Source: Olivibacter jilunii
GTDB lineage: Bacteria; Bacteroidota; Bacteroidia; Sphingobacteriales; Sphingobacteriaceae
Direction: 5' to 3'
Length of the DNA stretch: 64,000 nucleotides
Assembly (NCBI RefSeq): GCF_900607235.1
Contig: NZ_LR027849.1
Location: 806,001-870,000 of the forward strand
Shown: positions 2,828-42,320 of the stretch, one piece after another
Numbering within the stretch: the first letter of the stretch is position 1
Layout: every line of letters starts with the position of its first letter
The notes under the pieces: model-generated
What the model saw: the letters and a program-made list of their open reading frames with translations, nothing else
What the model was told of the DNA's origin: nothing
Database searches by the model: none
Made by a program: the position numbers and the translations under genes

Positions 2828-2858
2828 TTGGATATCAATGTCATTTTGATTAAGTTTG
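2828..2858 (+). promoter_or_regulatory. folK promoter, TTG-N20-TAAGTTTG, leaderless arrangement
   Basis: TTG at 2828-2830, a 20-bp spacer, then TAAGTTTG at 2851-2858, matching the Bacteroidota -33/-7 consensus. Only three bases separate the -7 box from the ATG at 2862, so the transcript probably begins at or next to the start codon. The in-frame TTG at 2856 lies inside the -7 box and cannot be the start. Confidence 0.7.
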
Positions 2859-2861
2859 TTT

Positions 2862-3347
2862 ATGCACACAGTTTATCTGATATTGGGTTCAAATTTAGGA
2901 GACAGCAGACAGCAATTAACTAAAGCCATTCAATTAATTGAAAGTAGAGTAGGAAACGTTATTGATCAATCCGCAATTTATGAGACAGTTGCTTGGGGGG
3001 TAAACAACCAACCGAATTACCTAAATCAGGCGCTCAAAGTCAATACGATTTTAACCCCTGAACAAACGCTAAAAGAAATCCTCGCGATTGAGGAGACGCT
3101 TGGAAGGAAAAGAAATACAAAGTGGGAGGCTCGACTAATCGATATTGACATTTTATTTTATGATGCAATCATCTTAGATACCCTTAATTTGAAAATCCCT
3201 CATCCGTTGCTTCATTTACGGAGGTTTGTACTAACTCCCCTTGTTGAAATAGCGCCTGGGCTAATGCACCCTTCCTACAGAATGGGGATAGCTGATTTAT
3301 ATGAAAAATTAGATGATAACCTGTCGGTAAGGCGGCTTGAAAAATGA
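2862..3347 (+). CDS. folK: 2-amino-4-hydroxy-6-hydroxymethyldihydropteridine diphosphokinase (HPPK)
   Basis: A 161-residue cytoplasmic enzyme of folate synthesis that transfers pyrophosphate from ATP to 6-hydroxymethyl-dihydropterin. Family landmarks are LILGSNLGD at the N-terminus, NQPNYLNQA, the signature RKRNTKWEARLIDIDILFYD region with the magnesium-binding acidic pair, and IPHPLLHLRRFVLTPL. I chose the ATG at 2862 rather than the in-frame TTG at 2856 because the latter sits in the -7 promoter box. It is convergent with pssA and shares a hairpin with it. It is monocistronic here, without folB or folP beside it. Confidence 0.93.
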   Translation: MHTVYLILGSNLGDSRQQLTKAIQLIESRVGNVIDQSAIYETVAWGVNNQPNYLNQALKVNTILTPEQTLKEILAIEETLGRKRNTKWEARLIDIDILFYDAIILDTLNLKIPHPLLHLRRFVLTPLVEIAPGLMHPSYRMGIADLYEKLDDNLSVRRLEK

Positions 3348-13155: not shown

Positions 13156-13827
13156 CTACACCTGCCAGTCAATTGGCGTTTTTCCGTGTTTTTCTAAATA
13201 GTCATTGGTTTTTGAGAAGGGTTTACTGCCAAAAAATCCATTGTGTGCAGATAGCGGCGAAGGGTGGGCTGATGTTATAATCAAATGTTTGGAGGAATCG
13301 ATCAGTTTCACTTTCTGTTTAGCGTAATTTCCCCATAATATAAAAACAATTCCTTCTCTTCGTTGTGCGAGTTCCTTAATTACGGTATCCGTAAAAACTT
13401 CCCATCCTTTTTTTTGATGAGATGCTGCCATGTGTGCTCGCACCGTCATTACCGCATTAAGGAGCAGTACACCCTGATCAGCCCATTTGGTCAGTGTACC
13501 GTGATTGGGAATCTTAAAACCTGGAATATCATTACTTAATTCGATATACATATTCCGTAGCGATGGAGGGATTGCAATGCCTGGTTGAACCGAAAAAGAC
13601 AATCCATGTGCTTGTCCGATATTATGATAAGGATCTTGCCCCAAGATAACGGCTTTCACTTCATAAAAGGGTGTGTGTTCAAAGGCATTGAATATAAGTT
13701 TATTGGGCGGAAATACCTGATATTGTGCTTGCTCTGTCCTCAAAAAATTTCGTAACTCGCTCATATAGGTTTTGGAAAATTCCGGTTCTAAAATTTCTTT
13801 CCAGCTTTTTTCAAGGGCTATACTCAT
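13156..13827 (-). CDS. ung: uracil-DNA glycosylase, family 1
   Basis: A 223-residue base-excision repair enzyme that removes uracil from DNA. The water-activating Asp65 in GQDPYHN and the catalytic His188 in HPSPLSAHNGFFGSKPFS are present, with the family's usual length. I chose the ATG at 13825-13827; the in-frame TTG at 13831-13833 lies in the -7 promoter box. The gene is monocistronic. Confidence 0.96.
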   Translation of the reverse strand: MSIALEKSWKEILEPEFSKTYMSELRNFLRTEQAQYQVFPPNKLIFNAFEHTPFYEVKAVILGQDPYHNIGQAHGLSFSVQPGIAIPPSLRNMYIELSNDIPGFKIPNHGTLTKWADQGVLLLNAVMTVRAHMAASHQKKGWEVFTDTVIKELAQRREGIVFILWGNYAKQKVKLIDSSKHLIITSAHPSPLSAHNGFFGSKPFSKTNDYLEKHGKTPIDWQV

Positions 13828-13830
13828 GCT

Positions 13831-13861
13831 CAAACTTAGCTAAAATTGACATTATATACAA
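13831..13861 (-). promoter_or_regulatory. ung promoter, TTG-N20-TAAGTTTG, leaderless arrangement
   Basis: On the minus strand TTG (13859-13861), a 20-bp spacer and TAAGTTTG (13831-13838) form a full consensus promoter. The -7 box ends three bases before the ATG, exactly as at folK, so the mRNA probably starts at the start codon. Confidence 0.7.
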
Positions 13862-25731: not shown

Positions 25732-25739
25732 TAGATTTG
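25732..25739 (+). promoter_or_regulatory. -7 box TAGATTTG four bases before the NifS-like start
   Basis: Perfect TAnnTTTG at 25732-25739; the ATG follows at 25744. No TTG at ideal distance is seen. If used, the transcript would be leaderless. Confidence 0.5.
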
Positions 25740-25743
25740 TAGC

Positions 25744-26880
25744 ATGCGCGTATATTTAGATAATGCGGCAACCACTGCAATAGATGAACAAGTATTGCAA
25801 GAGATGATGGTTGTTATGCGAGACGATTATGGGAACCCTTCATCCATTCATGCGGATGGTAGAAAGGTTAGAACAATTATCGAAAAAGCCCGAAAAAAAG
25901 TCGCTGCTTTATTAAATACTTCTCCAGCGGAGATTTTTTTTACATCAGGAGGAACAGAAGCCGACAATACGGCAATTCGAAGGGGAATTTTAGATCATCA
26001 ATTAAGTCACGCAATCAGTTCACCGCTCGAACACCATGCGGTTTTGCATACCTTACAAGAACTGGAAAAAGAAGGGAGCATTAAGCTAACACTGCTTGAC
26101 GTTGATGCGAAGGGACATGTGGATTTATCGCAACTGGAAAGAGTTTTGCAAAATAGTCCACCTAGTTTCGTCTCATTGATGCATGCAAATAATGAAATAG
26201 GCACAATAACCGATATACAAAGGGTATCCGATATCTGTCAGACCTATAACGCATTATTTCATACCGACACGGTCCAGACAATGGGACACTTTGTGCATGA
26301 CCTAAGTGCTCTGAAAGTAAGCTTTTTGGCGGGAGCAGCGCACAAATTCCACGGCCCGAAAGGAGCAGGCTTCCTATATGTTAATCATGAAGTAAAAATA
26401 AAGCCGTTCATCCATGGCGGTGCGCAAGAACGAAATATGCGAGGGGGCACGGAGAATGTCTATGGCATTGTTGGCTTGGCCAAGGCACTCGAGATTGCTT
26501 ATGAACATATGGCCGAACATAGGGCTTATATACAGGGGCTGAAAGATTACATGAGAGCGCAACTTATTCAGCATATTCCCGGTGTAAGCTTTAACGGCGA
26601 GTTGGAAGCCGATCAAAGCTTGTATACGGTATTAAATGTGTCGTTTCCACCTACAGATTTAGCTGACATGTTACTCTTTAACTTAGATATTGCGGGTATT
26701 TCCGCTTCGGGCGGCAGTGCATGCAGTTCGGGATCAAATATCGGATCTCATGTTTTAACCGCGATTGGCGTGGATGCCAAACGGCCGTCTGTTCGATTTT
26801 CTTTTAGTAAATTCAATACGAAAGAAGAAATCGATTTCGTTGTTTCTAAATTGAAGGAAGTATGTCCGGAGAACGTATAA
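25744..26880 (+). CDS. cysteine desulfurase, NifS/IscS type (type I)
   Basis: A 378-residue PLP enzyme with PLP lysine Lys201 (AAHKFHGPKG) and a flexible-loop active-site cysteine Cys327 in GGSACSSGS, the type I arrangement distinct from SufS at 10879. It supplies sulfur, perhaps for tRNA thiolation or other cofactors, since no iscU or iscA follows. Having two desulfurases of different type in 15 kb suggests divided roles. A terminator follows at 26907-26949. Confidence 0.92.
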   Translation: MRVYLDNAATTAIDEQVLQEMMVVMRDDYGNPSSIHADGRKVRTIIEKARKKVAALLNTSPAEIFFTSGGTEADNTAIRRGILDHQLSHAISSPLEHHAVLHTLQELEKEGSIKLTLLDVDAKGHVDLSQLERVLQNSPPSFVSLMHANNEIGTITDIQRVSDICQTYNALFHTDTVQTMGHFVHDLSALKVSFLAGAAHKFHGPKGAGFLYVNHEVKIKPFIHGGAQERNMRGGTENVYGIVGLAKALEIAYEHMAEHRAYIQGLKDYMRAQLIQHIPGVSFNGELEADQSLYTVLNVSFPPTDLADMLLFNLDIAGISASGGSACSSGSNIGSHVLTAIGVDAKRPSVRFSFSKFNTKEEIDFVVSKLKEVCPENV

Positions 26881-35928: not shown

Positions 35929-37134
35929 TTAAACTAATTTTTCAAGCGCAATTTTAATGCGTCGCAATGCTTCCGTTAGTTGCTCGTCCGAAGCAGCGTA
36001 GGACAAACGGATGCAGTCATTGTTGCCAAATGAATCTCCTCCTACAGTTGCCACATGCGCTTCATTCAATAGGTAAAGTGCCAGATCCGATGAATTAGCA
36101 ATCGTGTTACCATTTCCATCCTTTCGTCCGAAGAAGGCACTTACATCAGGGAAGAAGTAAAAAGCTCCTTCGGGTAGGTTAACCTTTACGTCATTAATTT
36201 CTTTCAGCGCGTTATATACCAACTCTCGCCGACGCTCAAAGGCCTTTTTCATTTCATTTACCGATTCTAGTCCCCCTTCATAGGCCGCAATTCCTGCCCG
36301 TTGCGCAATTGAGCAAGTTCCGGACGTGGTTTGTCCTTGAAGTTTGTCATTTGCGGCTGCTATTTCTTTACTAGCTGCAAGATAACCCAAACGCCAACCT
36401 GTCATAGCATAAGATTTGGAGAATCCGTTGATCAATATCACACGGTCCTTTACGCTTTCAAATTGGGCAATTGATTCGTGTTGACTTTTAAAATTAATAT
36501 GCTCATAAATCTCATCAGATATAATATAGATCTGAGGATGCTTTTCAAACACTTCCACTAAAGCAGCGAGTTCATCCTTGCTATAAACGCTACCTGTTGG
36601 ATTGCAAGGAGAAGAGAACATGAATAATTTCGTTTTATCTGTTATCGCAGCTTCTAATTCTTTTGGAGTGATTTTGAAGTCACTTTCAATGCTGGTATTA
36701 ATGAAAACCGATTTTCCTTCCGCCAAATTAACCATTTCTGAATAAGACACCCAGTAAGGAGTCGGAATGATAACCTCATCTCCCGGATTAATCACACAAA
36801 GTATAGCGTTAGATAGTGATTGCTTGGCACCGGTTGAAACGACAATCTGCGAAATATCATAATCTAAACCGTTTTCTTCCTTTAACTTCTTTACAATGGC
36901 TTTTCTTAGTTCGGGATATCCGGGAACGGGAGAATAACGCGTATAGTTTTCGTCCAACGCCTTCTTCGCCGCTTCCTTTATATGATCCGGTGTATTAAAA
37001 TCAGGTTCACCTACACTAAGGCTAATAATGTTGGCGCCCTGGGCTGCCAACTCCCTACCTAATTTGGTCATTTTTAGTGTGGCCGATTCAGATAGGTTAT
37101 TGATTCTTTCAGATAATATTGATAGTGTTTCCAT
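35929..37134 (-). CDS. pyridoxal-phosphate-dependent aminotransferase, class I/II (aspartate aminotransferase-like)
   Basis: A 401-residue fold-type I aminotransferase. PLP lysine in NGFSKSYAMTGWRLGYL (about 239), SSPCNPTGSVYSKDEL, and C-terminal RLSYA are typical of the AspB/AspC subgroup 1gamma. Probable reaction: aspartate + 2-oxoglutarate to oxaloacetate + glutamate, though the exact substrate cannot be told. A TAGGTTTG -7 box lies 7 nt before its ATG. It is monocistronic. Confidence 0.88.
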   Translation of the reverse strand: METLSILSERINNLSESATLKMTKLGRELAAQGANIISLSVGEPDFNTPDHIKEAAKKALDENYTRYSPVPGYPELRKAIVKKLKEENGLDYDISQIVVSTGAKQSLSNAILCVINPGDEVIIPTPYWVSYSEMVNLAEGKSVFINTSIESDFKITPKELEAAITDKTKLFMFSSPCNPTGSVYSKDELAALVEVFEKHPQIYIISDEIYEHINFKSQHESIAQFESVKDRVILINGFSKSYAMTGWRLGYLAASKEIAAANDKLQGQTTSGTCSIAQRAGIAAYEGGLESVNEMKKAFERRRELVYNALKEINDVKVNLPEGAFYFFPDVSAFFGRKDGNGNTIANSSDLALYLLNEAHVATVGGDSFGNNDCIRLSYAASDEQLTEALRRIKIALEKLV

Positions 37135-37141
37135 TAGATTA

Positions 37142-37149
37142 CAAACCTA
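37142..37149 (-). promoter_or_regulatory. -7 box TAGGTTTG seven bases before the aminotransferase start
   Basis: Perfect TAnnTTTG on the minus strand (CAAACCTA on plus). The box ends 7 nt upstream of the ATG at 37132-37134. No TTG was found at the expected distance. Confidence 0.5.
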
Positions 37150-41129: not shown

Positions 41130-41137
41130 TACTTTTG
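41130..41137 (+). promoter_or_regulatory. -7 box TACTTTTG seven bases before purM
   Basis: Perfect TAnnTTTG; the ATG follows at 41145, so the transcript start would fall at or within a few bases of the start codon. The -33 element is not clear. Confidence 0.55.
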
Positions 41138-41144
41138 CAGCCGT

Positions 41145-42320
41145 ATGTCAGATTTAAAGTACAACCAACGCGGTGTTTCGGCCGGTAAAGAAGATGTGCA
41201 TAATGCCATTAAAAACATTGACAAGGGCTTATTTCCAAAAGCGTTTTGTAAGATAATACCGGATATTTTAGGCGGGGCGGATGATTGGTGTAACATTATG
41301 CATGCCGATGGTGCAGGCACCAAGTCCTCATTGGCCTATGTTTACTGGAAAGAAACCGGTGATTTATCGGTATGGAGAGGTATTGCACAAGATGCAATCG
41401 TCATGAACATCGATGATCTGCTTTGTGTTGGAGCCTTAGATAATATATTAATTTCGTCCACCATAGGAAGAAATAAGAGTCTAATCCCCGGAGAAGTAAT
41501 CGCAGAAATCATTAATGGAACGGAAGAAATCCTTCAAGAACTGAGAGATCTGGGGATAGGCATCTATTCGACCGGGGGAGAAACGGCGGATGTCGGCGAT
41601 TTGGTTAGAACAATTATCGTCGACAGTACAGTTACCTGCCGCATGAAGAGAGCTGACGTGATTTCAAATCATAAGATAGAGGCAGGAGATGTTATTGTAG
41701 GGCTTTCCTCTTACGGAAAAGCTGTGTATGAGTCTGAATACAATGGCGGAATGGGATCAAACGGCTTGACATCCGCCCGTCACGATGTGTTCAATAAGTC
41801 AGTCGCTGAAAAATATAAAGAAAGTTACGACCCCGCAATTCCTCATGAGCTTGTTTTTTCGGGAAGCAAAGCGCTTACCGATACGATTACTATTGACGGC
41901 GAGGAGATTACAATCGGAAAATTGGTCCTTTCGCCAACCCGTACTTATGCGCCCGTTATGAAGGAAGTGCTCGATCATTATCGCCAAGATATACACGGGA
42001 TGGTTCATTGCAGTGGTGGAGCACAAACAAAGGTTCTGCATTTTATTGATCGTTTCCATATTATTAAAGATAACCTTTTTCCGATCCCTCCCTTGTTCAG
42101 ACTGATACAAACGGAGTCAAAGACTGATTGGCAGGAGATGTATAAAGTCTTTAATATGGGACATAGAATGGAGTTATACGTTCCGGAGGCGAGAGCAGTC
42201 GATATCATTCGCATCGCAGAAAAATTTGGCATTGAGGCTAAAATAGTAGGAAGAGTTGAAGATAGTGAACAAAAGAAGGTAACCGTCCATTCCGAAGTTG
42301 GGGAATTTGTTTACTATTAA
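41145..42320 (+). CDS. purM: phosphoribosylformylglycinamidine cyclo-ligase (AIR synthetase)
   Basis: A 391-residue enzyme of purine synthesis converting FGAM to AIR. The AIR synthase fold is seen as MHADGAGTKSS, DAIVMNIDDLLCVGA, IGIYSTGGETADVGD, and GGMGSNGLTSARHDVF. The 391-residue form with N-terminal YNQRGVSAGKEDVHNAI is the Bacteroidota type, longer than the 345-residue E. coli enzyme. It is upstream of rimB but 42 bp separates them; co-transcription is possible. Confidence 0.93.
   Translation: MSDLKYNQRGVSAGKEDVHNAIKNIDKGLFPKAFCKIIPDILGGADDWCNIMHADGAGTKSSLAYVYWKETGDLSVWRGIAQDAIVMNIDDLLCVGALDNILISSTIGRNKSLIPGEVIAEIINGTEEILQELRDLGIGIYSTGGETADVGDLVRTIIVDSTVTCRMKRADVISNHKIEAGDVIVGLSSYGKAVYESEYNGGMGSNGLTSARHDVFNKSVAEKYKESYDPAIPHELVFSGSKALTDTITIDGEEITIGKLVLSPTRTYAPVMKEVLDHYRQDIHGMVHCSGGAQTKVLHFIDRFHIIKDNLFPIPPLFRLIQTESKTDWQEMYKVFNMGHRMELYVPEARAVDIIRIAEKFGIEAKIVGRVEDSEQKKVTVHSEVGEFVYY

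Follow-up and report, generated by a model that had tools for sequence, protein, structure and literature searches.

Promoter boxes next to start codons suggest a leaderless folK mRNA in Olivibacter jilunii and a variable leaderless share across Bacteroidia

Near-start promoter boxes at folK and four other genes

The window analysed here is a 64,000-nucleotide stretch of the genome of Olivibacter jilunii, a member of the Sphingobacteriaceae. It contains five genes, all starting with ATG, in which a match to TAnnTTTG ends 3 to 7 nt before the start codon; this distance is called the gap below. The features are as follows (strand given after the coordinates; G003 is a genome of the same genus and G002 a further relative):

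2828..2830, +, TTG, -33-like element of the putative folK promoter, 20 nt 5' of the -7 box
2851..2858, +, folK -7 box TAAGTTTG, the sole exact TAnnTTTG on the folK strand of the intergenic region
2859..2861, +, TTT (sequence letters), the 3-nt gap between the folK box and the start codon
2862..3347, +, folK (HPPK; Pfam PF01288, E 1.3e-37), predicted leaderless, predicted +1 at A2862
13156..13827, -, uracil-DNA glycosylase family gene (ung-like; PF03167), predicted leaderless
13831..13838, -, ung-like -7 box TAAGTTTG, gap 3; gap 3 also in G002
25732..25739, +, -7 box TAGATTTG of the NifS-like gene, gap 4; gap 4 in G003, gap 3 in G002
25744..26880, +, class-V aminotransferase gene (Aminotran_5, NifS-like; PF00266), predicted leaderless
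35929..37134, -, class I/II aminotransferase gene (Aminotran_1_2; PF00155), predicted near-leaderless
37142..37149, -, class I/II aminotransferase -7 box TAGGTTTG, gap 7; gap 7 also in G002
41130..41137, +, AIRS/purM-like -7 box TACTTTTG, gap 7; gap 6 in G003, gap 7 in G002
41145..42320, +, AIR synthase-related (purM-like) gene (PF00586 and PF02769), predicted near-leaderless

Positions 2828-2864, directly before and including the folK start codon, read TTG / N20 / TAAGTTTG / TTT / ATG, letter for letter as in the original prediction. The gene upstream of folK encodes an S49 peptidase and is oriented away from it, so that folK requires its own promoter. On the folK strand, the 173-nt divergent intergenic region between the two genes contains the one exact box, with 6 of the 6 fixed letters of TAnnTTTG, and three boxes with one mismatch, at 2690, 2699 and 2841; a scan for sigma-70 promoters found no site upstream of folK. 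The arrangement TTG-N20-TAAGTTTG is intact at folK in O. jilunii, G003 and G002, in which the spacer letters differ. The HPPK domain match begins at residue 5 of the folK product.

The original prediction described a complete promoter at folK and the same layout at the other four genes. The boxes and their gaps are present at all five genes, but among the other four only ung has TTG at the 20-nt spacing, so this element is absent in three of the five. The TTG inside the folK box itself (position 2856; 2856-2861 precede the ATG) is an in-frame alternative start for folK, and a plain listing of open reading frames picks it.

Enrichment of boxes next to start codons in the Olivibacter genome

Genes were called with a simple hexamer model that is blind to upstream sequence, and all starts are predicted ones. 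Two samples were used, the first 1.264 Mb (808 ATG genes) and an enlarged sample of 1.494 Mb (981 ATG genes; 22% of the genome). Called genes lacking 300 nt of upstream sequence (16 of 886 in the smaller sample, and likewise in the enlarged one) were left out before counting, and genes with other start codons were tallied separately. A near box was defined as TAnnTTTG ending 3-9 nt before the ATG.

The count against shuffled upstream sequence that the original prediction had proposed gave a clear excess with called genes: near boxes precede 37 of the 808 ATG genes, about 8-fold the mean of 4.7 in 200 dinucleotide shuffles (maximum, 11). Within gaps 0-9 of the same sample, TAnnTTTG has 40 matches, compared with 1 to 9 for each of 29 permutations of its letters; 26 of these 40 also fit TAHHTTTG, and the other 14 have a G among the two n letters. 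In the enlarged sample, near boxes precede 40 of 981 ATG genes, and a further 113 have a box only at 10-60 nt. The position is sharp: matches at gaps 0 to 14 number 0, 1, 2, 6, 10, 4, 7, 5, 4, 4, 2, 2, 2, 2 and 0, the highest count being that of gap 4. Farther out, a second rise spans 15-30 nt, with 10 matches at gap 19, and fits ordinary leaders. When only genes with unambiguous starts are kept, the remainder likewise tops at gap 4 (9 of 612 genes); this filter drops gaps 3, 6 and 9 by construction, because the TTG of the box is then an in-frame start. No near box was found before 81 non-ATG starts, a contrast with the 40 of 981 ATG starts that is not significant (P 0.067). The near-start boxes are thus due to more than chance.

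The claim that five such boxes in the window exceed chance also held, with 5 of 46 ATG genes against 0.24 predicted from the far-upstream background rate. The share itself, presented as appreciable, proved smaller outside the window, 35 of 935 ATG genes (3.7%); the difference between the window and the remainder (P 0.035) indicates a selection effect, in that the first reading had looked at a rich patch. Pattern counts made without gene calls went the other way: over the whole genome, box-N4-ATG occurs 154 times and box-N12-ATG 155 times, with no excess at gap 4, and raw box-N(g)-ATG counts for g from 0 to 59 have no clear peak in the 1.26-Mb sample. We keep the raw count as a result against our reading and not as the main test because ATGs within genes swamp the signal and the expected excess is small.

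The pattern TTTG-N19-TANNTTTG occurs 105 times genome-wide and its reversed version 53 times, too few for placing start sites. At three places (G000:C5:532358-532524, C10:76-243 and C12:164308-164475, G000 being O. jilunii), a pair of TTTG-N19-TACCTTTG promoters with a spacing of about 137 bp recurs; two of these places are no more than 250 bp from a contig end, and the pairs may lie upstream of rRNA operons.

Conservation of the boxes in relatives

Each of the 50 called genes of the window has a match of more than 60% identity in G003, in the same order. The identity of folK is 77% both in G003 and in Olivibacter sp. XZL3 (contig NZ_SBJH01000067.1), and 61% in G002. Among 140 ortholog pairs with the same start in O. 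jilunii and G003, a set that took in three of the five window genes (folK, the NifS-like gene and AIRS), 6 have a near box in O. jilunii; the exact gap is kept in 4 of these and shifts by at most 1 nt in 5. The sole near box lost precedes a 186-nt open reading frame (block position 237725) that may not be a gene. A far box has a counterpart no more than 3 nt displaced in 2 of 17 cases and a leader-type box (15-60 nt) in 18 of 20, and of the 134 pairs without a near box in O. jilunii 1 has one in G003. With G002, 43 same-start pairs were compared: all five near boxes of the window are kept, four exactly and one shifted by 1 nt, whereas far boxes are kept within 3 nt in 0 of 5 cases and a near box is present in 0 of the 38 pairs without one in O. 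jilunii.

A search for folK in 60 genomes yielded matches in 59 relatives, and the upstream region was read at the best 30 loci. Among these, the loci of O. jilunii and 29 relatives, a box lies at gap 3-6 in 9 (O. jilunii and 8 relatives) and at 10-60 nt in 6. Within the genus, four of five genomes, O. jilunii included, have the box at gap 3; the fifth, G001, has no such box. The near-start layout thus recurs at the folK locus, the remaining relatives having a leader-type box or none that was found. In five relatives (L006, L016, L018, L019 and L023), TATATTTG or TATCTTTG lies 23-34 nt upstream of folK with GTTACA close after, in four of these five loci as AAACGTTACA; they may have a leadered folK arrangement with an extra conserved element.

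In 10 pooled ortholog comparisons of near-box genes, folK included and the open reading frame at block position 237725 excluded, 40 of the 54 mismatches in codons 2-11 fall at third positions. This bias from codon 2 onward indicates that coding starts at the ATG beside the box.

A probable leaderless mRNA from the folK promoter

The reading that we consider quite probable is that TAAGTTTG at 2851-2858 acts as the -7 element in a housekeeping promoter of the sigma-ABfr type, that a leaderless folK mRNA starts at A2862, and that the same arrangement would hold for about 3-4% of the ATG genes in the sampled part of the Olivibacter genome and for a higher proportion of first genes. The analysis shows the layout, the enrichment of the boxes and their narrow placement, their conservation in relatives and coding that begins at the ATG; the +1 nucleotide and translation from a 5'-terminal AUG are inferred. 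Purines are usually favoured as +1, and this preference together with the published box-to-start spacing of 4-5 nt would make A2862 the most likely start for RNA polymerase; the folK mRNA would then begin 5'-AUG, and ribosomes would initiate without Shine-Dalgarno pairing. In Flavobacterium johnsoniae the box lies at -12 to -5, with 4 or 5 nt from box to start reported for many candidate promoters (PMC6847099), and in F. psychrophilum a report likewise places it at -12 to -5 (PMC9723704). The rise at gap 3 and the top at gap 4 in our sample fit the F. johnsoniae spacing. With this spacing, gaps of 4-5 predict an mRNA start at or next to the A of the AUG, and a gap of 7 predicts a leader of 2-3 nt, as would be expected for the class I/II aminotransferase gene.

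Several points count against a leaderless folK mRNA: the G at -9 of the box, the lack of TTG enrichment at near boxes (see below), the G001 folK locus without a box, the flat raw counts over the genome and in the sample, the contrast between ATG and non-ATG starts that falls short of significance, and the use of a simple gene caller. The first of these concerns the second n of the folK box, which differs from the refinement TAHHTTTG described for F. johnsoniae promoters, where G at -9 is reported virtually never to occur (PMC6847099); that refinement comes from one Flavobacterium and is not a family-defining rule. In its box sequence, its spacer of about 20 nt to TTG and its upstream T-rich stretch, the folK region resembles the sigma-ABfr promoter (-33 TTTG / -7 TAnnTTTG).

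The gap of 3 at folK leaves room for a different outcome. With a spacing of 4-5 nt, transcription would start at U2863 or G2864, and only a 3-nt spacing would keep the AUG whole. The promoter could therefore be real and yet yield transcripts that start inside or after the folK ATG, a truncated or non-productive RNA, with another start or another promoter serving folK, for which the three one-mismatch boxes upstream would be candidates. We consider this unlikely, given that the gap-3 box is kept in four of the five genomes of the genus, that conservation of coding from codon 2 and a domain match from residue 5 leave scant space for a downstream start, and that gap 3, with 6 matches against 0, 1 and 2 at gaps 0-2, behaves as a permitted distance.

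Gene context and accompanying elements

In the 1.264-Mb sample, near boxes were found at 18 of 208 divergent genes, 6 of 237 genes at least 100 nt from a neighbour upstream on the same strand, 8 of 151 at 30-100 nt, 1 of 171 at less than 30 nt, and 4 of 41 at the edges of stretches. This bias is the behaviour expected of a promoter and not of a translation signal. In the enlarged count, a near box precedes 22 of the 268 divergent ATG genes, a larger share than among ATG genes overall, and another 55 carry a box only at 10-60 nt. In a descriptive comparison, near boxes resemble leader-type boxes (gap 15-45) more than far boxes (100-260 nt upstream) do in the T-rich stretch at positions 4-7 nt upstream of the box, where T makes up 48-70% at near, 36-57% at leader-type and 37-43% at far boxes.

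Among 40 near boxes, 6 have TTG at a spacing of 18-21 (3 and 5 at two shifted spacings); the counts are 32 among 94 boxes of the leader type (8 and 8) and 19 among 125 far-upstream ones (13 and 11). The TTG element thus marks promoters of the leader type and not the near-start class, and in this respect the near-start boxes of Olivibacter differ from the sigma-ABfr promoter; the description of a complete promoter is to that extent weakened. Across the 981 ATG genes taken together, Shine-Dalgarno-like motifs number 44, and 45.8 in shuffled sequence, so that the pooled genes have no Shine-Dalgarno signal, in line with the original prediction.

TAnnTTTG next to the ATG might instead be an unstructured, A/T-rich sequence that promotes initiation of translation on a leadered mRNA, with no promoter involved. 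Signals of this kind, A/T-rich and unlike the Shine-Dalgarno sequence, are reported before Bacteroidota starts (PMC6847099, PMC9581028), and in G101, a genome of another Bacteroidia family discussed below, 17 of 109 ATG genes less than 30 nt from a same-strand neighbour do have near boxes, unlike in Olivibacter. We regard this explanation as improbable for O. jilunii, where permuted motifs of equal composition are not enriched, genes closely following a same-strand neighbour almost never have the box, and TTG at N20 is retained at folK in three genomes. Least credible is chance, the occurrence of boxes by some starts in an A/T-rich genome, for which the flat raw count at gap 4 and the richness of the window speak, but against which stand 37 gene-anchored matches, more than in any of the 200 shuffles or for any permuted motif, and the near boxes kept in orthologs.

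Comparison with known leaderless systems

Leaderless mRNAs are already on record in the phylum. The reported leaderless share is 5.5% in F. psychrophilum (PMC9723704); in Bacteroides thetaiotaomicron about 3.7% of 5' UTRs are shorter than 10 nt (PMC7366714), and in F. johnsoniae 13% of leaders have at most 10 nt (PMC6847099). What Olivibacter has in common with these organisms is the phylum and a promoter abutting the start codon; their leaderless mRNAs come from RNA data, whereas those of Olivibacter are predicted from promoter position. The ratio at divergent ATG genes of Olivibacter with a box within 60 nt, 22 near to 55 only at 10-60 nt, looks higher than the published shares, although the measures differ. 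Zheng et al. (2011), whose procedure modelled only Pribnow-like boxes, list 1 of 37 Bacteroidetes/Chlorobi genomes as having leaderless genes and mention Bacteroidetes as a group that may be underestimated (PMC3160421). The leaderless genes with a TA-like signal described there for Actinobacteria and Deinococcus-Thermus are similar in that their promoter element precedes the start codon by a short, constant distance (PMC3160421). According to a 2024 study, initiation independent of the SD sequence is linked in some Flavobacteriia to leaderless mRNA (PMC10783764); the StartLink authors describe AT-rich non-canonical RBSs for the FCB group, and Omotajo and co-authors report Bacteroidetes genes lacking an RBS rather than mapped leaderless mRNAs. 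Low-frequency leaderless mRNA in Bacteroidota is therefore already published, and folK would add another case.

Survey of near-start boxes across Bacteroidia

Gene-anchored near boxes were also counted in four other genomes: 8 of 225 ATG genes in G003, 6 of 99 in G002, 18 of 262 in G122, which belongs to another family, and 59 of 232 in G101, of family f38. In G101, 25 matches fall at gap 4 alone, and only 19 more genes have a box at 10-60 nt; of its 64 divergent ATG genes, 31 have a near box and 10 a box only at 10-60 nt. Of the 27 G101 genes in which TTTG stands at gap 4, 25 have the TA of the box as well. A near box precedes 8 of 59 non-ATG starts of G101. At two divergent pairs of G101 genes (within L131-L150), with 29 and 38 nt between the start codons, both genes have a near box in between. 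The G101 proteome is Trp-rich and has an IVYWREL fraction of 0.428, which suggests a thermophile.

To extend the comparison, box-N4-ATG and box-N12-ATG were counted in 396 Bacteroidia genomes of 76 families, with totals of 38,045 and 31,896; gap 12 is no neutral control, as it may be influenced by reading frame and short leaders. Gap 4 is in excess by more than 3 sigma (Poisson) in 97 of the 396 genomes and short by as much in 8, and 27 of the 76 families have fewer matches at gap 4 than at gap 12. The family of the window, f1, is slightly raised (2,471 against 2,155, 19 genomes); families f11 and f36 have no gap-4 excess (ratios, 0.85 and 0.87). Family f38 has 1,400 matches at gap 4 against 230 at gap 12, with an excess in 8 of 8 genomes (lowest, 133 against 33). 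The three genomes of family f35 (G070, G149 and G155; 913 against 434) and the three of family f17 (G052, G225 and G300; 357 against 99) suggest further leaderless-rich lineages.

When only surveyed genomes with a completeness of 85% or more are considered, the order to which G101 belongs comprises 8 genomes of 1.8-2.3 Mb, all of family f38 and of the single genus g62. We think it fairly likely that in this deep lineage of Bacteroidia most promoter-bearing genes are leaderless, transcribed from TAnnTTTG promoters, and that leaderless use ranges from none to dominant across the class. For f38, the gene-by-gene basis is G101 (the 59 genes with a near box and 19 with a box only at 10-60 nt, of 232), and the other seven genomes enter by pattern counts. 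A Bacteroidota lineage with mostly leaderless mRNA was not reported among the matches listed in our literature search (titles and abstract openings; subscription journals lie mostly outside its coverage). We found no published account of how widely the leaderless share differs between lineages, and it is this range that should surprise specialists.

Implications

To our knowledge, Bacteroidota retain the anti-Shine-Dalgarno sequence yet leave it unused, and how their start codons are chosen is still debated. The leaderless route is often discounted for this phylum, since RNA data from three species put its share of transcripts at only about 4-13%. For annotation, near-start boxes matter in that gaps divisible by three, that of folK among them, turn the TTG of the -7 box into an in-frame decoy start for gene callers. 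If promoter position can be read from sequence this sharply, the leaderless share could be surveyed phylum-wide, gene starts could be checked, and lineages in which it dominates could be picked for experiments. Should the reading of f38 be true, a phylum known for its unused anti-Shine-Dalgarno sequence would have switched at least once to leaderless translation.
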